A stretch of 20,204 bases of DNA from a virus. Made by a program: the position numbers and the translations under genes. The stretch lies in the IMG/VR virus record IMGVR_UViG_3300017751_000333, positions 1 to 20,204 of that record. One strand, given 5' to 3'. Under the pieces are notes generated by a model that worked only from the letters and a program-made list of their open reading frames with translations, made no database searches and was not told the DNA's origin. Within the stretch, counting starts at the first letter, position 1. Each line of letters opens with the position of its first letter. Shown here piece by piece: positions 3,088-19,001 of the stretch.

Positions 3088-3508
3088 TACTAGTAAGAAT
3101 GTAAGAGCGTATATATATGGGTTACTAGATGGAAATGTAACACATGATGCTAGTGCCGTTCCGGTAGTGGCTAAACCAACCGATCTTACTGATTATCCTT
3201 ACATAGTAGTTCAATCATCTAATTTTGCTGATGATAGTTTAAAAGATAGGTTTTATGGTGTGCATGAAGTAGAGATACAAGTTCACACCAAATTTCCACT
3301 AAACTTCGGAGGACAAGATGATTGTGATGACATATCAAATTCAATATTACAATTAATAAGAACTCGTAATGCTACTTCTGATTTTGGTAGTGATACAATG
3401 TTTGTATTTAAACAAACTACACAAAGGTATTTAAATGATGATGATGGGCAATTTGATTATTACACCAAATCATTATTCTTTGATGCAGATGTTATAAGCA
3501 ATAGTTAA
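3080..3508 (+). CDS. Tail terminator/completion protein (DUF3168-like)
   Basis: 142 residues. The N-terminus 'NVRAYIYGLLDGNVT' followed by 'VPVV...YPYIVVQSS' and the central 'DRFYGVHEVEIQVHTKF' beta strand match the plan of DUF3168 proteins. These are small alpha/beta proteins that form the ring capping the head-proximal end of the tail tube and stopping tube growth in siphophages. A helix 'DDCDDISNSILQLI' follows, then C-terminal strands. The position agrees with this: tail-tube genes come immediately after, and the stop codon overlaps the next start (TAATG). It could instead be another neck protein of similar size, but the order terminator, tube, chaperone, tape measure is the standard one. 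Confidence 0.72.
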   Translation: MNDTSKNVRAYIYGLLDGNVTHDASAVPVVAKPTDLTDYPYIVVQSSNFADDSLKDRFYGVHEVEIQVHTKFPLNFGGQDDCDDISNSILQLIRTRNATSDFGSDTMFVFKQTTQRYLNDDDGQFDYYTKSLFFDADVISNS

Positions 3509-4059
3509 TGAATGGAAGTAGCTTACTCTTATATATTGATAACGATAAACTTTTATATTCAAAATCTCACAGTTTTTCGTTTAGTGGAGACACGATTGAC
3601 ATCTCTACCAAGTTATCAGATATATCTGCAATTGAGGAAAGCTACTATTGGGAATCTGCAAACTTCAATTGGGAACAACTTGATGAAACTTGGGAAGGTA
3701 TAACTAGAAGCCAATCAGTTACCGGTTGGAGTGAAAGTATGCCTAGTTTTCGTTCAGCAAACTTTTCTTCTGAAGGATTATATGTAGTAGATGGGATAAC
3801 CCAAACATGGGACACAACAGATTATTATTGGGAGTTGTTTAATGTAGATTGGGAAGATGGTGCAATTGAACCAAATCCAACAACTACTTTAGATAATTTA
3901 GTTATTACCGGTGAAGAAGTTAAATTTGAAATATTAGATAGTAATTTAAATTCTGTATTTGTTGGTAGATGCTATGTAGCTAATTATGAATTGGTGGCTG
4001 ATAATGAGGGAGCAATGTTTTATAACGCTGATTTTAGCGTAACAAGTGGGGTAGCATAA
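3508..4059 (+). CDS. Tail-tube paralogue with Trp/Glu-rich insertions
   Basis: 183 residues. It aligns by eye with the major tail-tube protein encoded just downstream: 'NGSSLLLYI' against 'NGTSLTLYI', 'SFSGDTIDISTK' against 'SISADTPDISTK', 'WSESMPSFRSANFS' against 'WTEVMSGMKSFSID', and a shared C-terminal 'VFVGRCYVANYEL' / 'YWYGDCIISSLES' strand pair. So the two are tandem duplicates. This copy carries extra material: residues 46-64 ('YYWESANFNWEQLDETWEG') and 106-118 ('YYWELFNVDWEDG') look like two copies of a YYWE...N..WE motif absent from the partner. It may be a minor or specialised tube subunit, for instance at one end of the tube or with surface decoration. The TAATG overlap with the previous gene indicates coupled translation. 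Confidence 0.75.
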   Translation: MNGSSLLLYIDNDKLLYSKSHSFSFSGDTIDISTKLSDISAIEESYYWESANFNWEQLDETWEGITRSQSVTGWSESMPSFRSANFSSEGLYVVDGITQTWDTTDYYWELFNVDWEDGAIEPNPTTTLDNLVITGEEVKFEILDSNLNSVFVGRCYVANYELVADNEGAMFYNADFSVTSGVA

Positions 4060-4102: not shown

Positions 4103-4561
4103 ATGGCTGCAATTAACGGAACTTCATTAACTTTATATATCCCTCAGATAGATGCATCAGCAAATCCAACATCAGCTTGGATACCTATAGGATTAGCTAA
4201 ATCAGCTAGTTTATCTATTTCTGCTGATACTCCGGATATATCTACCAAAGATAGTAGTGCTTGGACAGAAGTAATGTCGGGTATGAAAAGTTTTAGTATA
4301 GATTTTGAGGCTTTAATGGATTTAACTACAGATACGGATGCATCTGCAAACAATTTTAAGCCATTATACGATTACTTTACTAATAGATCAACAATCAAAG
4401 TAGCTTTTGGTAAAGATGCAACTTATTGGTATGGAGACTGTATAATTTCTTCTTTAGAATCAAGTGCAGAAGCTGAACAACCGGTAAGTTATAGTGGTTC
4501 TTTAACGGGAACGGGTGCATTAACTTATGGAACTGCAAGTCCAATTGCATATCCAAGTTAA
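4103..4561 (+). CDS. Major tail-tube protein
   Basis: 152 residues, mostly beta, rich in S, T and A, as expected for the ring-forming subunit of a siphophage tail tube. The pattern 'NGTSLTLYI', 'SLSISADTPDISTKDSSAWTE', 'MKSFSIDFEALMDLT', 'TIKVAFGK...YWYGDCIISSLE', 'YSGSLTGTGALTY' resembles the TP901-1-type tail-tube family. The conserved idea is a beta sandwich with a 'D-I-S-T-K' turn, and a final 'SGSLTGTG' strand. It follows the tail terminator and its own paralogue, and precedes the assembly chaperone and tape measure, which is the usual order. It has its own A-rich leader (AAAATTAACAAT) and a possible promoter, so this copy is the better candidate for the abundant subunit. Confidence 0.82.
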   Translation: MAAINGTSLTLYIPQIDASANPTSAWIPIGLAKSASLSISADTPDISTKDSSAWTEVMSGMKSFSIDFEALMDLTTDTDASANNFKPLYDYFTNRSTIKVAFGKDATYWYGDCIISSLESSAEAEQPVSYSGSLTGTGALTYGTASPIAYPS

Positions 4562-4588: not shown

Positions 4589-4978
4589 ATGGCAAAAAAC
4601 AAACACAGAGGTACTTGTATCATAGATATAGGTGGTAAAAAAAGAGGATTAGTATTTAATATGAATACCTATGCAATATTTTGTGAAGGTATGGATATTG
4701 AACTAGCTGAAATGGATGAGGCATTTGGTGGCAGAAAACAAGCCAAAGCAATATGTTGGTTAATGTATTCCGGATGTGTAGCTTATGATGAGAAAAACTC
4801 ATCTAATATAGATTATGACATACATGATTTTTACGATTGGGTTATGGACATATCTAGTGAGGATACAGAAAAGGTAATGCAAACAATGGTTGGCTCTAAA
4901 ACTTTAGATAATGATTCTAATAATGGTATGGCAAGAAATGTTGTTGAATCAACAAAGGATGATGTAAAAAAAAATTAA
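4589..4978 (+). CDS. Tail assembly chaperone, zero-frame product (gpG-like)
   Basis: 129 residues, placed between the major tube protein and the tape measure, where siphophages encode the tail assembly chaperone that coats the tape-measure protein during tail building. 'GKKRGLVFNMNTYAIFCE' (a strand and a helix start), 'AKAICWLMYSGCVAY' and 'FYDWVMDIS' give the short alpha/beta core usual for this class. The zero-frame protein ends soon after a run of nine A residues (4966-4974). Just there, the -1 frame opens and continues to 5289 without a usable ATG. This is the classic arrangement for lambda G/GT-like frameshifting. The last ~20 residues, N/D/K-rich, look like a flexible linker. Confidence 0.8.
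   Translation: MAKNKHRGTCIIDIGGKKRGLVFNMNTYAIFCEGMDIELAEMDEAFGGRKQAKAICWLMYSGCVAYDEKNSSNIDYDIHDFYDWVMDISSEDTEKVMQTMVGSKTLDNDSNNGMARNVVESTKDDVKKN
4966..4972 (+). other. Programmed -1 frameshift site (A AAA AAA)
   Basis: In the zero frame the codons are GTA AAA AAA AAT TAA, so the heptamer at 4966-4972 is a perfect X-XXY-YYZ slippery site. The -1 frame has a stop at 4960-4962, right before the site, and is then open through to 5289. After slippage, translation would continue K-L-T-T-F-D-D and on into the second chaperone segment, giving a fusion of about 233 residues. No ATG starts the downstream segment. This is well-established behaviour for tail assembly chaperones of siphophages. Confidence 0.82.
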
Positions 4979-5289
4979 CTACATTCGATGACATATTAGA
5001 TCAAGGAATAGGAACGTTGGGTTTATCACCCGACGTTTTTTGGTTATTGACATGGGCAGATTTTATTAGGCTACTAGAGGCACACATACACAACCACAAT
5101 CAACATTGGGATAGGACAAGATATCAATCTACAATGATAGCTAATTGTGCTATGGGTAGGAAGAAAACAATCGCTCCAAAAGATTTGTTTAGGCTACCGC
5201 ATGATTATGATGGTAAGAAAAAAACACCATTACCTACAAAAGAAGAAGTTAATAAGATTAAAAATAGAGCAATAAAATTACCTATTTAA
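4972..5289 (+). CDS. Tail assembly chaperone, -1 frame extension (gpT-like)
   Basis: About 105 residues are added to the upstream chaperone by -1 frameshifting. The segment begins 'KLTTFDDILDQGIGTLG', then 'SPDVFWLLTWADFIRLLEAH', 'NQHWDRTRYQSTMIANCAMG' and a basic tail 'APKDLFRLPHDYDGKKKTPL'. The 'W-x-D-F-x-x-L' helix and the 'R-x-x-x-x-I-A-N' helix are typical of T-domains, which recruit the tape-measure protein. The first possible start is a TTG at 5017, inside a strong hairpin and with no proper leader, so independent translation is unlikely. It is followed directly by the tape-measure gene. Identification rests on reading frame and gene order more than on sequence likeness. Confidence 0.78.
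   Translation, partial: KLTTFDDILDQGIGTLGLSPDVFWLLTWADFIRLLEAHIHNHNQHWDRTRYQSTMIANCAMGRKKTIAPKDLFRLPHDYDGKKKTPLPTKEEVNKIKNRAIKLPI
5010..5041 (+). terminator. Terminator-like hairpin within the -1 frame chaperone
   Basis: AACGTTGGG (5013-5021) pairs with CCCGACGTT (5029-5037) across a seven-base loop, nine pairs with one U-G, and wobble pairs can extend it outward. It is followed by T residues up to 5041, which makes it look like an intrinsic terminator. It lies inside coding sequence that is translated only after frameshifting, about 40 bases past the slippery site, further than usual for a frameshift-stimulating structure. It may be a weak attenuator before the tape-measure gene, a distant stimulator, or simply a coincidence of codons. 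Confidence 0.45.
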
Positions 5290-5308: not shown

Positions 5309-7399
5309 ATGGCTGAAGAAAAATTAACGCTGAAAACGTTCCTAGAATCATCTCAATTTATAAAAGGGGCGAAAAAAGTAAAAAATGCATTAGGAAGTAT
5401 AGGTAAAGCAGCATCTACACTTGGGGCAACTATGACGGGCGCAATGGCGTTAAGAGGTGTTAAGGCAATGACTGATTTAGCGGGTGAAGCTGAAAAAACT
5501 GATTTAAGATTTAAACGAGTTTTTGGATCAATGTCTTCTGAGGTTACCATGTTTTCTTCATCATTATCTACTGATTTAGGAAGAGTTAAGTCTGATATAG
5601 AATCAGGAATGGTTTCATTTCAAGCATTCTTTCAAGGATTAGGTTTTGGAGGACAGGAAGCTATTAAAATGTCTTCAAGTATGCAAGCATTGTCTCTTGA
5701 TTTGGCCTCATTCTTTCAGTTACAGGATGGTAACGCACAAAAAAGATTTCTAGCAGCGTTAGCGGGTTCTCCGGAAGTTCTTGATCAGTTTGGTATAAAC
5801 TTAAAGGAAGCAAGATTAGAGCAAGAGTTGCTCAATATGGGTATTACAACAACCGTTCAAAAAACGGATGAGATGACAAAGACACACGCTAGATTGTCTG
5901 TTATAATGAAGGCAATGACTGCTAATGGTATTGTTGGTGATGCTAGGAGAACAATGTTTACTTATGCTAATACATTAACAAGGGCAGAAGGCTCATTGAA
6001 GGAATTAGCTATATCAATAGGTGATAAATTCATTCCTTTTGCTAAAGAAATGCTTGAGGTAGTTATTAGTGTCTCCAATGGTATTGATAAGTTATTTGGT
6101 GGTGGAACTAAATTATCAAAACTTAATGAAGAACAACAAAAACAATTCCAATTACTAAGCGCTGCATTAATAGATTCAGAAAAAGGAGCCTCTGATTATG
6201 AATTAATATTGAATAAGTTAGTTTTAATGTATCCAAAATTTTTGAAAGGATTGGACAGGGCAACTGTAAGTACGGAGGAATTAGAAAAAAGGGTTTCAGA
6301 AATTAATGGTGCATTTGAAACTCAACAAAAAATAGTTGATAACGGAATTAAGATACAGGAGTTAAAGGTAGATTTAACAAAAAAAGAAAACAGAGTCTTA
6401 GCGCTTAAACAAGAGATTCAGAAGAACATAGCTAATGGGGAAAAGAGGAATCGTGATGGTGAAGTTGAAAGAAACGAAATACTTAAAGAACAATTAACCG
6501 GTTCTATTCGTGGGACAAATGCTACTCTAGATTTAGCAGCAGCAACAAAAGAATATAGTGATGCCGTTGCGGAAAATGTAAGATTATTAGCATTAAGGGA
6601 TGTTGTTTTTGAGGATACTTTTGGCGGGAAAAAGAAAAAAGAAGAAAAACCTCCAAGAAGCGTTCCATTAGCCCCTAGTTTTGGTAAATTAGGTAGTAGT
6701 ATGCAAATGATTGATTCTATGGCAATTGCCGGTGATATGTCAGAAGAATTAAAGAAAATACCCGAAAATATAGAACCAGTATCAATGCTTTGGAAAGATT
6801 ATTTTAATCTTGGTGGAATTGAATTTGTAAAAGATACAATATTACAAAATGGTAAATTAATTCATAAAACTTTTATTGATCTTGAAAGTACAATGGCTAA
6901 TGCTCTTGAAGGATTTGCTAGTAATATGGGACAAGCGTTTGGAGGTGCTATACAAACCGCATTAAAAGGAGGTGCTAATTTAGGTACTGCAATTAGATTA
7001 GCAACAAAAGAAGCATTAGGAGGAATGGCTGCTGATCTTGCAGCAAATGCAATGTATTTTGGTATTCTTGCATTAGGTTATAAAGCCGGTATAATAGCTA
7101 CGGGTGGGGCAACCGGAGCACCCGCAGTAAGTGCAGCAAAATCTGCCGGAATATTTGCAGCCGGTGCAACGTTGTTAGGTGGAGTAAGTGCTGCTATTAG
7201 TGGCAAAGGAGGGGGTGGCACGACTCCATCATCTAGAAATACCGGTGGTAGTGCTAACGGAGGTACGGGTGTAGGTGGAGGAACGTTTGAAGATTTTATG
7301 GATTCAATAAGAGGAGAACAAGTTTTTAGATTAGCCGGTAATGACTTAGTAACTGCAATTAACAGAACAAATACATTTCAAGGATCAATAGGAGGATAA
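5309..7399 (+). CDS. Tail tape-measure protein
   Basis: 696 residues, the second-largest complete gene, directly after the tail chaperones, as in siphophages. The N-terminal half is helical ('FLESSQFIKGAKKVKNALGSIGKAASTLGATMTGAMAL', described here in parts: residues 11-48), followed by a region with 'MSSSMQALSLDLASFF' and 'LAALAGSPEVLDQFGI' that is common in tape measures. Residues ~340-430 form a charged coiled coil ('KIQELKVDLTKKENRVLALK'). Residues ~565-650 are rich in G and A with hydrophobic stretches ('MYFGILALGYKAGIIATGG'), which may insert in the host membrane during DNA entry. Using the usual rule of about 0.15 nm per residue, the tail would be near 100 nm. No lysozyme or peptidase domain is visible. 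The leader is A/T-rich. Confidence 0.92.
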   Translation: MAEEKLTLKTFLESSQFIKGAKKVKNALGSIGKAASTLGATMTGAMALRGVKAMTDLAGEAEKTDLRFKRVFGSMSSEVTMFSSSLSTDLGRVKSDIESGMVSFQAFFQGLGFGGQEAIKMSSSMQALSLDLASFFQLQDGNAQKRFLAALAGSPEVLDQFGINLKEARLEQELLNMGITTTVQKTDEMTKTHARLSVIMKAMTANGIVGDARRTMFTYANTLTRAEGSLKELAISIGDKFIPFAKEMLEVVISVSNGIDKLFGGGTKLSKLNEEQQKQFQLLSAALIDSEKGASDYELILNKLVLMYPKFLKGLDRATVSTEELEKRVSEINGAFETQQKIVDNGIKIQELKVDLTKKENRVLALKQEIQKNIANGEKRNRDGEVERNEILKEQLTGSIRGTNATLDLAAATKEYSDAVAENVRLLALRDVVFEDTFGGKKKKEEKPPRSVPLAPSFGKLGSSMQMIDSMAIAGDMSEELKKIPENIEPVSMLWKDYFNLGGIEFVKDTILQNGKLIHKTFIDLESTMANALEGFASNMGQAFGGAIQTALKGGANLGTAIRLATKEALGGMAADLAANAMYFGILALGYKAGIIATGGATGAPAVSAAKSAGIFAAGATLLGGVSAAISGKGGGGTTPSSRNTGGSANGGTGVGGGTFEDFMDSIRGEQVFRLAGNDLVTAINRTNTFQGSIGG

Positions 7400-7402
7400 A
7401 AT

Positions 7403-10378
7403 ATGGGTTATTATATAAATAAATATACATTAGAATTTGATGACATAATACAAGGAGAGTTTAATGATTATAAATTAGAAATACATAAAAAATATTCAAG
7501 TGATACTTCTGATAATGTATATGCTACAGTAACTGCAAATGAAAACATTACTATAGGTGATCCCGTTATTTATGTACAATCCGGAGTTGTTGCTAGAGCA
7601 AAAGCATCTACTAGTTCTTTAATGCCACATGTTGGTGTAGCTTATGAAAATATTAATCAAGGTGCATCGGGGCAAATATTAATTAGCGGAATTTTTCCAA
7701 ATCCTACAAGCGTTAATGCAACGTATTACGTTGGTGAGAATGGCGGTTACACAACTTCTACTGCGGGATTAACAATAATAGATGTAATAGGTTATCAAGT
7801 AGCTTATGGCACATTAGTTTTAACTGATGATAATGTACAATTAAAAGGAAATGGAAGTCCAATACAGTTAAATTACAATTTAGTTGAAGATGATATTTTA
7901 AGTTGTTTTAGATCAAGTTATTTAGATGTTTCTTTTTATAAAGAAAGTTTATCAGAAGATTTTTCTGAATTATTTATAGCAGAAAATGATAGCTTTAAAG
8001 TTTTTTTGTACAAAAATGATAATTTATTTTGGCAAGGATGGTTGGCAACACAACTATTTTCAGAACCATTTGCATCACCTCCATATGTAATAAAATTAAG
8101 AGCATATGATGGAATACATTTATTAAAAGATATACCTTATTTTACTAGTACAGATATATTTCAAGCTACATCTAATTTATTTAACGATAGGTATGGATAT
8201 CATAATATTACTGATATCATAGAAAAATGTATTTACAATACCGGTGTTTTAAATGATGTTTTTTATTACATAAACATAAAAAATCAAGAAACAACAAATT
8301 TAACATCTGAATTTCAAAAGAAAACAAGAATACATCACCAAACATTTTTAAATGGAGAATCTGATTCAATGAACATGAGAGAGGTTCTTGAAATTATTTT
8401 TAAAAGTTTAGGTGTTACAATTTATCAAAGAGATGGTAATTGGTGTATAATTAGGGTGTCAGAGTTTACTACAAGCAATAGTAATTCTGTAATAAAAAGA
8501 AGTAATTGGAGAGCAGTTGATAATCCAACTGATACAAATTATGTGTTAACAACAGAATCATTAGAATCTGTTATAAGCACTAAAGTATCTTCAGAAGTAG
8601 ATTTTTTTCAAGTTGATAATAGTTCTACATTAACACTTCAATATCCACTAAAAGAGGTTATAGTAGAGCAAGAATTTGATCATAATATGGTTACAAATAC
8701 AACCATAGATAATGTTAATGATTTAGGAGCATCTGATCCAAGTGGATTGTATTTAATGGATGATTGGCAACCTCAAGGATCAAATATACAAGAGGCAGTT
8801 GTTTTAAGAAAAAATGAACCTCAAAGTCAATCTAAAAATTTAAATAAATCATTATTAGAAGCAGATTTGGGGTATGATTCTGTTAAAATAGATCATTGTG
8901 ATGGATCATTACACTACCCGTCTGATCATGATGTTATAATAGATTCATCTACAATAACCGGATTACGGGCAGAAGCAAAAGCACGTCCGTTAGGTAGAAG
9001 TTTAGTTGGTGATCAAGCAATTGGATTGTTGTTTTCACCAAAACTACACGAGGAAGGGACGTTAGTTTATACCGGATTTGGTAGATCGGCTATTGATGAG
9101 GTATCTATGATTAACAATACAATACTAAGGTTTAATGAAACTGCGGGTTTATATAATGACTTAATATTAGGTGTTTTAGATGTTAATGTAACGGGGCAAA
9201 GTTATGTTGTTAAAGTTTATCAAAATGGTGCTATATTTTTTACAAGTCCAACAATGCCGGCTAGGCTTTTTTCTGATCCAACCGTAGAAATGGGAGGAGG
9301 TTCGGGTGCTACCGGTATACCAACTAATTTGACTTTTAAAATGAATTTTAGTGCTATTAGTGATTATACAGTACAAATAGTTACTACCGGAGGTACAATA
9401 CAAGATGCTCAATGGAAATTAAGAGGATACGAGTCAAATGGTGTAGATATTTGGGGAACTTTATACTATAGTATGTCAAATATAGTTGTTAATACATTTA
9501 GTATAAATAACTATCAATATTCAGATATAAATGGTAATGCAATATCGGGTGGAAACATTGGAACTGTTGCTCCAAATATTGACACAAAAGATATAATTTC
9601 TACTGCATTTATAAAAAACTTTACTTGCGCTAATGATTTTGTAGCAAGTAGTTTTATATCAAACAGAATAAACGATTGGGAAACATATTCTGTTACTGCA
9701 ACAAGAAATTGGCAATCAAATATATCTAATTTAAATATTGAGTTACATTTGTTTGGATCGGCTATTGTGCAAGATGAAAATGGGGCAAAACTTTCTAGTC
9801 CTTATTACGATGTTTTTGATGTTAGTTATACTGATATTAAATTATTGCCGGTTGTTACTGATTCTAAGTTTGTACCAAAAAAACAAGAATATGTAATTTC
9901 ACAACCAAGTAATTTTAGTAATAAAAAAACATTAGAAACTAAAATTGGTTCGGCATTATTTCAAACCGGATATAATAGATATATAGGATTTGATTCAACC
10001 ACCTCAACGACTTTTGAGAAAAGTTGGACAAATTGGACAGATAGTAAATTTACTTCTGTTACTATGCAACATTTATTAGCATCATGTTATATGGAATTAT
10101 ACAGAATACCCGTAAGAAGAATTGATGGAACACATTACGGTAATTATAAATATGGTGATAGATTGGTTTTAAAAGTTAATGGATCAACAGATACTTTAAA
10201 TGGTTCTCAAGGTAAATTTTATCCAATGAAGGTTACAATGGATTTAAAAATGGCTAGAACAAGTTTTAGTGGAGATGATTTATTAGACAATACCGGAACA
10301 GATTGGCAGACGGGATTAACTAAAACAATTAAGTGGATTGGTGAAAACGATATTACCGAAACAGAAACTTTAACCTAA
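7403..10378 (+). CDS. Tail hub/baseplate protein with inserted N-terminal domain
   Basis: 991 residues, following the tape measure by three bases. The N-terminal part resembles the hub-type proteins of Bacteroidota phages: 'YTLEFDDIIQGEFNDYKLEI' (residues 8-27), then 'GSPIQLNYNLVEDDI' (151-165), 'SSYLDVSFYKE', 'YKNDNLFWQGWL', 'SEPFASPPYVIKLRAYDG' and 'LLKDIPYF'. Between the first two blocks, residues ~36-147 form an extra module ('NITIGDPVIYVQSG', 'PHVGVAYENINQGASGQIL', 'NATYYVGENGG') that reads like a small beta-barrel decoration or fibre-type domain. The remainder is long and beta-rich with 'WCIIRVSEF' early on and a C-terminal 'YRIPVRRIDGTHYGNYKYGDR' block. It probably closes the tail tip and anchors receptor-binding parts. 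No enzymatic motif seen. Confidence 0.8.
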   Translation: MGYYINKYTLEFDDIIQGEFNDYKLEIHKKYSSDTSDNVYATVTANENITIGDPVIYVQSGVVARAKASTSSLMPHVGVAYENINQGASGQILISGIFPNPTSVNATYYVGENGGYTTSTAGLTIIDVIGYQVAYGTLVLTDDNVQLKGNGSPIQLNYNLVEDDILSCFRSSYLDVSFYKESLSEDFSELFIAENDSFKVFLYKNDNLFWQGWLATQLFSEPFASPPYVIKLRAYDGIHLLKDIPYFTSTDIFQATSNLFNDRYGYHNITDIIEKCIYNTGVLNDVFYYINIKNQETTNLTSEFQKKTRIHHQTFLNGESDSMNMREVLEIIFKSLGVTIYQRDGNWCIIRVSEFTTSNSNSVIKRSNWRAVDNPTDTNYVLTTESLESVISTKVSSEVDFFQVDNSSTLTLQYPLKEVIVEQEFDHNMVTNTTIDNVNDLGASDPSGLYLMDDWQPQGSNIQEAVVLRKNEPQSQSKNLNKSLLEADLGYDSVKIDHCDGSLHYPSDHDVIIDSSTITGLRAEAKARPLGRSLVGDQAIGLLFSPKLHEEGTLVYTGFGRSAIDEVSMINNTILRFNETAGLYNDLILGVLDVNVTGQSYVVKVYQNGAIFFTSPTMPARLFSDPTVEMGGGSGATGIPTNLTFKMNFSAISDYTVQIVTTGGTIQDAQWKLRGYESNGVDIWGTLYYSMSNIVVNTFSINNYQYSDINGNAISGGNIGTVAPNIDTKDIISTAFIKNFTCANDFVASSFISNRINDWETYSVTATRNWQSNISNLNIELHLFGSAIVQDENGAKLSSPYYDVFDVSYTDIKLLPVVTDSKFVPKKQEYVISQPSNFSNKKTLETKIGSALFQTGYNRYIGFDSTTSTTFEKSWTNWTDSKFTSVTMQHLLASCYMELYRIPVRRIDGTHYGNYKYGDRLVLKVNGSTDTLNGSQGKFYPMKVTMDLKMARTSFSGDDLLDNTGTDWQTGLTKTIKWIGENDITETETLT

Positions 10379-18539: not shown

Positions 18540-18578
18540 GAGCAAAAAACTTTTCTTTTTTTTTGATTTGAATGATTG

Positions 18579-18613
18579 AAATATTCTAGGAGAAATTCTA
18601 GGATATTTTTTTT
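18579..18613 (+). terminator. Intrinsic terminator of the replication/accessory operon
   Basis: AATATTCTAG (18580-18589) pairs with CTAGGATATT (18598-18607): ten pairs, one of them U-G, around an eight-base loop, and one more outer A-U pair is available. A run of eight T residues overlaps the base of the stem, and more T-rich DNA follows. It lies 40 bases after the last gene of the operon. The two arms also contain a direct repeat ATTCTAGGA, 12 bases apart. Confidence 0.75.
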
Positions 18614-18657
18614 ATTTTTTTTTTATTTTTTTTCTAAAAATATTTTTTTTAAAAAAA
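18604..18657. repeat. Pure T/A homopolymer tract
   Basis: Except for one C near 18634 the stretch is only T then A: runs of T broken by single A bases, then TTTTTTTT followed by AAAAAAA. Such DNA melts easily or bends. It could be the tail of the terminator, an unwinding element, or both. Confidence 0.6.
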
Positions 18658-18681
18658 GCTATCTATAGCAAAAAAAACTTT

Positions 18682-18729
18682 GGGGCAAATTCTCGGAGCA
18701 AATTTTCGGAGCAAACGGGGCAAATTTTC
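18682..18729 (+). repeat. Four iteron-like repeats (GGRGCAAATTYTC)
   Basis: Units begin at 18682 (GGGGCAAATTCTC), 18695 (GGAGCAAATTTTC), 18708 (GGAGCAAAC, shortened) and 18717 (GGGGCAAATTTTC). The spacing is 13, 13 and 9 bases. The G-rich core in an otherwise A/T-rich gap is notable. Tandem direct repeats next to an A/T-only tract are the usual architecture of iteron replication origins and of multi-site regulator binding regions; the sequence cannot tell which. Confidence 0.65.
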
Positions 18730-18903
18730 TGACACAGAGTTGGAAATAATAGTTATTAACATTTTGTGATTTTACCCTTTGTGGAAAACTAATAATGACA
18801 TTTTATAAAAAATTGTTTTGAATTTTGCGTTTTATTGATTATTCGCGCGGTTCAATATCTTAGAACAGTTTAAACCGGCATTATAAAATAAAGTAACAAT
18901 TAT

Positions 18904-18934
18904 TTTGTTTTTTGAATGTGTTTAAATATACTTG
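18904..18934 (+). promoter_or_regulatory. Putative sigma-A promoter for the 19002 gene
   Basis: TTTG (18904-18907), a 19-base spacer and TATACTTG (18927-18934; seven of eight matches to TAnnTTTG). Transcription would begin near 18940, giving a leader of about 60 bases. A 12-base palindrome sits immediately after the expected start, where a bound repressor would block transcription. Confidence 0.55.
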
Positions 18935-18946
18935 CTATCGAATAAC

Positions 18947-18958
18947 GGCAATATTGCC
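18947..18958. promoter_or_regulatory. Palindrome GGCAATATTGCC, operator candidate
   Basis: A perfect 12-base palindrome about 7-18 bases after the expected transcription start. The half-site GGCAAT is the same as in the larger palindrome at 19653, which lies before the DUF932 gene. As DNA it may be a repressor operator; as RNA it would form a four-pair hairpin at the transcript's 5' end. Confidence 0.5.
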
Positions 18959-19001
18959 TTAATTACTAACACAATTAGCAAATACTAAAATTACTAGCAC
19001 T

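Follow-up and report, generated by a model that had tools for sequence, protein, structure and literature searches.

A conserved A9 run at the predicted frame transition between two tail assembly chaperone reading frames of an uncultivated phage clade

We analyzed a 20,204-nucleotide stretch of DNA from a marine bacterial virus (positions 1 to 20,204 of IMG/VR record IMGVR_UViG_3300017751_000333; hereafter, the window) and identified two overlapping open reading frames, denoted G and T, between the major tail protein gene and a tape measure-like gene, the order found in the G/GT type of phage lambda (Table 1). T occupies the -1 frame relative to G and most likely has no start codon for itself. 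The T segment is homologous to known tail assembly chaperones, scoring 26.3 bits against PF09550 (Phage_TAC_6; cutoff 23.4), and also matches phrog_16333 (E 9e-9); the only such homology of G is to phrog_2115, annotated as "tail protein" (E 2.2e-6). For the product of the tape measure-like gene, the matches better than phrog_1533 are to families without known function. The adjacent genes 3508-4059 and 4103-4561 both match the major tail protein family phrog_1407 (E 5e-11 for the former), a possible duplication of the tail tube gene. The protein encoded at 13550-14575 matches Flavobacterium phages (93/95 records) and a Tenacibaculum phage, and the host is likely to be flavobacterial.

Table 1. 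Features of the G/T junction and the flanking genes, in window coordinates
Feature	Position	Strand	Basis
Major tail (tube) protein, upstream gene	4103-4561	+	phrog_1407 (E 2e-33), PF06199
gpG-like tail assembly chaperone ORF (G), zero frame, 129 aa	4589-4978	+	phrog_2115 match, gene order, 57 relatives with junction
TGA stop of the -1 frame, just 5' of the run	4960-4962	+	Sequence
T-like segment, -1 frame, C-terminal part of the proposed G-T fusion	4963-5289	+	PF09550, phrog_16333, coding signature
A9 slippage run with in-phase A AAA AAA (4966-4972)	4966-4974	+	Sequence, relatives
Zero-frame stop of G, TAA (TAG in some relatives)	4976-4978	+	Sequence, relatives
Covarying hairpin with trailing U tract, within T, 38 nt past the heptamer	5010-5040	+	Alignment covariation
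Tape measure-like protein, downstream gene	5309-7399	+	phrog_1533 tail length tape measure protein (E 2.5e-4, weak), position

G ends in the zero frame with GTA AAA AAA AAT TAA (4964-4978). As originally predicted from the window alone, the heptamer A AAA AAA is in phase, a -1 stop lies just upstream of it, and the -1 frame then contains no stop until the TAA at 5287-5289. The accompanying claim that this frame contains no ATG was wrong: ATG codons are present at 5134-5136 and 5152-5154 (M54 and M60), both deep within the conserved domain, and the TTG at 5017 opens an ORF of 90 aa. Because potential start positions vary among the relatives and residues upstream of 5017 are invariant, none of these codons appears plausible as the start of T. 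Five A9 runs occur on the two strands of the AT-rich window compared with 4.9 expected, so that an A9 by itself is unremarkable; what exceeds chance is its conservation among relatives.

Three scans of viral contigs yielded 58 distinct related contigs, of which 57 hold the junction; the remaining one, L079, starts inside T and was left out. The run is exactly A9 in 56 of these 57 relatives, thus retaining the in-phase slippery X XXY YYZ heptamer, and is interrupted in none. The single exception, L004, is otherwise near-identical to the window and carries A8, which places T at +1/-2. In all 57 A9 sequences (the window and 56 relatives), G lies in frame 0 and T in the -1 frame, although G is truncated to 33 codons in one of them. 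Among 36 distinct T segments, there are no stops in the T frame compared with 5-14 in each other frame, and the variable columns are distributed over the three codon positions as 59/39/94 of 104. The first ATG of the T frame falls at codon 18, 25, 33, 34 or 54, and the first ATG, GTG or TTG at codon 8, 15 or 25, so that no start codon is conserved in these 36 segments. Given this coding signature, the lack of stops and the five different places of the first ATG, we infer that T is translated, most likely not from a separate start codon.

The run itself is evidently under constraint, because every one of the 38 distinct G sequences has AAA for both lysine codons of the run (K128 and K129), whereas AAA and AAG are both found in seven of the eight other lysine columns conserved in G and T. 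Across the loci of the 57 relatives (277,295 bases in total), a partly redundant set of contigs, the + strand contains 57 A9 runs and none longer, and 56 of the A9 runs are the junction. Within the clade of the window, A AAA AAG is never used at the slip site, and A10, which would fuse the two frames, is found in none of the 57 relatives. The original prediction proposed comparing related phages for the A run and the frame, and both features are kept in 56 of 57; relatives with a single fused frame, which it named as contrary evidence, are missing from the 57 clade members, and the 26 remoter records described below likewise have separate frames.

The same comparison bears on the possibility that G and T are two separate genes, with T translated from TTG 5017 or another codon without any frameshift. 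Apart from the ORF opened by TTG 5017, this reading can draw on Cellulophaga phage phi39:1, in which gp20 is annotated as a gene in its own right with a start inside the T-like segment. However, no start codon, ATG or otherwise, is conserved in the T frame across the 57 clade relatives, L075 has CTT in place of TTG 5017, and the invariant residues upstream of 5017 as well as the conservation of A9 would be left unexplained. We consider two separate genes quite improbable.

Remoter relatives were gathered outward from phi39:1 by weak match and gene order, yielding 26 records that include phi39:1 as well as Aquimarina and Paenimyroides genomes. T is at -1 in 25 of the 26. G-type heptamers are present in 16 records, namely G GGA AAG in 14 (L137, L138, L144, L153, L154, L158, L159, L161-L165, L170 and L171), G GGG AAA in L136 and G GGA AAC in L148. 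Nine other records carry A-runs, A9 in eight (L139, L143, L145, L147, L155, L156, L157 and L160) and A10 in L152. These A-type runs occupy three codon phases (XXA AAA AAA AAN, GAA AAA AAA AGC and GAT AAA AAA AAA GGC), and every A-type record with T at -1 has an uninterrupted run of nine or more, never one of just seven or eight. Several of the homologies are weak (E 3.4e-7 for L145, 3.2e-8 for L147, 2.4e-4 for L148 and 5.7e-4 for L152), the junctions of L139 and L157 are identical, and a further candidate site, A AAA AAG, lies near the run of L145. In phi39:1 (L134, 4943-4960), the run is A8 and gp20 is at +1/-2, unlike in the other 25 records; a single A missing from the record (a miscounted A9) would explain this exceptional frame, the alternative being a -2/+1 shift. 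L155 is close to L153 and L154, but its junction has G GGG AAG in place of G GGA AAG, contains A9 and keeps the downstream hairpin; region 2430-2500 of L155, compared with L153 and L154, appears to show that A9-G has naturally replaced G GGA AAG at this junction.

Additional searches recovered few relatives. The T profile of the clade gave no match in genome contigs, and the T of L143 had none in viral contigs; neither G nor the tube protein nor the protein encoded at 7403-10378 had a match in a phage collection. Broader genome searches gave matches in 4 of 397 (also with another query), 3 of 395, 3 of 101 and 1 of 199 genomes.

We also considered an assembly error, in which a miscounted homopolymer would have split a single gene. 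A-runs are error-prone and L004 does have A8, but the frame-fusing A10 is absent from all 57 clade relatives and the same -1 geometry recurs at the G-type sites of 16 of the 26 remoter records. This explanation is refuted in practice and carries next to no weight.

Thus, the homologies, the gene order and the conservation of both frame and run strongly support a programmed frame transition of the lambda G/GT type, whichever machine performs the slipping step, with a probability of about 0.93. Most translation of G would yield the G-like protein that ends at TAA 4976, whereas a minority would shift by -1 on the A9 and read the -1 frame to 5289, yielding a G-T fusion with the predicted junction ...VKKKLTTFDD. 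We infer the production, amount and role of this fusion from the features described above; by analogy with lambda, G would coat the tape measure protein, with the tail tube protein recruited by the T part. Xu, Hendrix and Duda reportedly described in 2004 the conserved tail chaperone frameshift, with lambda G/G-T. The lambda heptamer is G GGA AAG, which several of the remoter relatives share. The window resembles lambda G/G-T in gene order, in the two overlapping frames, in the -1 direction and in having a small G with a T extension. It differs in its A9 with A AAA AAA, in the lack of a proximal hairpin and in the presence of a distal covarying one, and the fusion here is a predicted product. 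The gene order is also that of phi39:1 gp19/gp20 (NC_021804), where gp20 belongs to phrog_16333, as does T of the window; however, the two T proteins are only 22% identical (E 0.3), and the phi39:1 run is the possibly miscounted A8.

The original prediction described the site as a textbook -1 frameshift. The frame transition between the chaperone pair is strongly supported, but ribosomal slippage is only one of two plausible mechanisms, because conservation covers a pure A9 and not just the heptamer, which also fits polymerase slippage. We narrowly retain the ribosome, with two Lys-tRNAs slipping in tandem on A AAA AAA, at about even odds. This assignment has the general tail chaperone precedent and the G-type sister sites on its side; for the 16 G-type sites in the remoter records, ribosomal slippage is the natural reading. 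Furthermore, PMC3711429 gives the rule that orthologues shifting in one direction point to ribosomal slippage and those shifting in both directions to transcriptional slippage, and by this rule the single direction seen throughout, including 25 of the 26 remoter records, favors the ribosome. Only phi39:1 and L004 break the rule, both with A8 and T at +1/-2, and sequencing error is possible in either; if they are not errors, the rule would favor transcription. Also counting against the ribosome, a slippery heptamer needs only seven A's, yet a pure A9 is kept, and A AAA AAG, which according to PMC5009743 is slippier than A AAA AAA in Escherichia coli, does not occur as the site in the clade of the window.

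The rival to ribosomal slippage is transcriptional realignment, in which RNA polymerase slips on the A9, some mRNAs gain one A and normal translation of these yields the G-T fusion; we regard it as a serious contender that falls a little short of even odds. RNA polymerase slippage requires pure runs of nine or more. The A9 of the window is such an uninterrupted run, and what the relatives conserve is the pure run itself (56 A9 and one A8), with the junction accounting for nearly all A9 runs at these loci. The remoter A-type runs (eight A9 and one A10) occur in three codon phases, which would be expected if what counts is the length of the run and not the phase of the ribosome. According to PMC1088944, selection in many bacteria acts against slippage-prone A/T runs at a length of nine. 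By contrast, the uniform direction of the shift and the G GGA AAG sites of the same family, which are hardly transcriptional, argue against the polymerase, as do the second candidate heptamer near the L145 run and the small number of A-type lineages.

Proximal stimulators were assessed by folding 47 nt starting 3 nt behind the heptamer, with z below -2 taken as a hairpin; L157, L158 and L165 were omitted as near-copies of L139, L153 and L164, the first of two candidate sites was used for L148, and the L147 heptamer was placed one base early. Hairpins were found at 9 of 14 G-type sites, including one of 12 pairs in L153, and at 3 of 12 A-type sites (L075, L152 and L155), four of these 12 sites being from the clade of the window. 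The rarity of hairpins at A-type sites would fit the polymerase, but the statistics make this a weak contrast, with p 0.053 in Fisher's test and 0.019 in a rank test (0.11 after collapsing relatives). Directly behind the A9 of the window, the same 47 nt hold no significant hairpin (z 0.27). An alternative outer stem, 4982-4992/5043-5054, which would place a structure 6-9 nt behind the site, was rejected, with many broken pairs across 29 aligned rows. The earlier remark that an upstream Shine-Dalgarno (SD) stimulator is unlikely appears reasonable: an SD-like motif precedes only 3 of 27 starts in the window, and AAGGA 5' of the run, counted by eye, is present in 13 of the 29 aligned rows and hence not conserved. 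Some phages of this kind therefore appear to use a downstream hairpin, and at most A9 sites no stimulator is evident. Stimulators of ribosomal slippage are not known to be obligatory, so the missing stimulator does not exclude the ribosome.

The distal hairpin listed in Table 1 was evaluated in an alignment of 29 of the 30 distinct 120-nt junctions, with L004 left out. In these 29 rows, 93.6% of cells are paired and double changes occur at four pairs; none of 500 shuffles attains the covariation score, which drops when the partner strand is slid. The same pairing is kept by different letters (ACG/GAC, ACA/GAT and ACT/GAA), and L075 re-makes several pairs together. The clade of L101, L111, L114 and L116 lacks the hairpin, and the six U's are broken in the L101 clade. 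As the hairpin starts 38 nt past the heptamer, which we judge too far for contact with a ribosome at the site, it is unlikely to act on the ribosome directly. A role in masking TTG 5017 was also rejected, since L075 has no TTG yet keeps the hairpin. A terminator scan lists the hairpin, but the two terminator-like sites in the stretch compare with 1.9 expected, which alone is no evidence. The hairpin and U tract might be a partial terminator or an RNA-stabilizing element that lowers tape measure mRNA relative to that of the tail tube and G.

A tentative synthesis, to which we assign slightly less weight than to polymerase slippage in the window itself, is that the family uses either machine, the ribosome at G GGA AAG, often aided by a hairpin, and the polymerase where A9 has been swapped in, as in the clade of the window and other lineages, with the distal hairpin perhaps acting besides as a partial terminator or stabilizer. 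In PMC5009743, nine A's are associated with efficient polymerase slippage, with dnaX of Thermus thermophilus as a case. That gene shares with the window the nine-A run and homologous genes elsewhere that use ribosomal frameshifting (PMC5009743 and PMC1088944), but dnaX is cellular and its slippage gives a shorter product, whereas that of the window would give a longer one. If the polymerase indeed reads the A9, the window would be the tail chaperone counterpart, in a phage, of the dnaX case. Among the open-access texts retrieved, which were reviews, prediction tools and papers on other subjects, we found no paper on a G/GT frameshift in Bacteroidota phages, and those on tail chaperones, or on Flavobacteria, and transcriptional slippage do not describe this case.

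The G/GT frameshift is classic, and the window offers a real programmed transition of this familiar type that an uncultivated phage clade has conserved well; what makes it of interest is the split between A9 and GGGAAAG, along with the covarying hairpin. Natural pairs, such as L153 and L154 with G GGA AAG versus L155 with A9, would allow ribosomal and transcriptional slippage to be tested against each other within a single gene family whose hosts make little use of Shine-Dalgarno pairing. Elsewhere in the window, region 18540-19000 contains no listed forward ORF and is marked by clustered T8-T10 runs and repeated ggagcaaa/ggggcaaa words.
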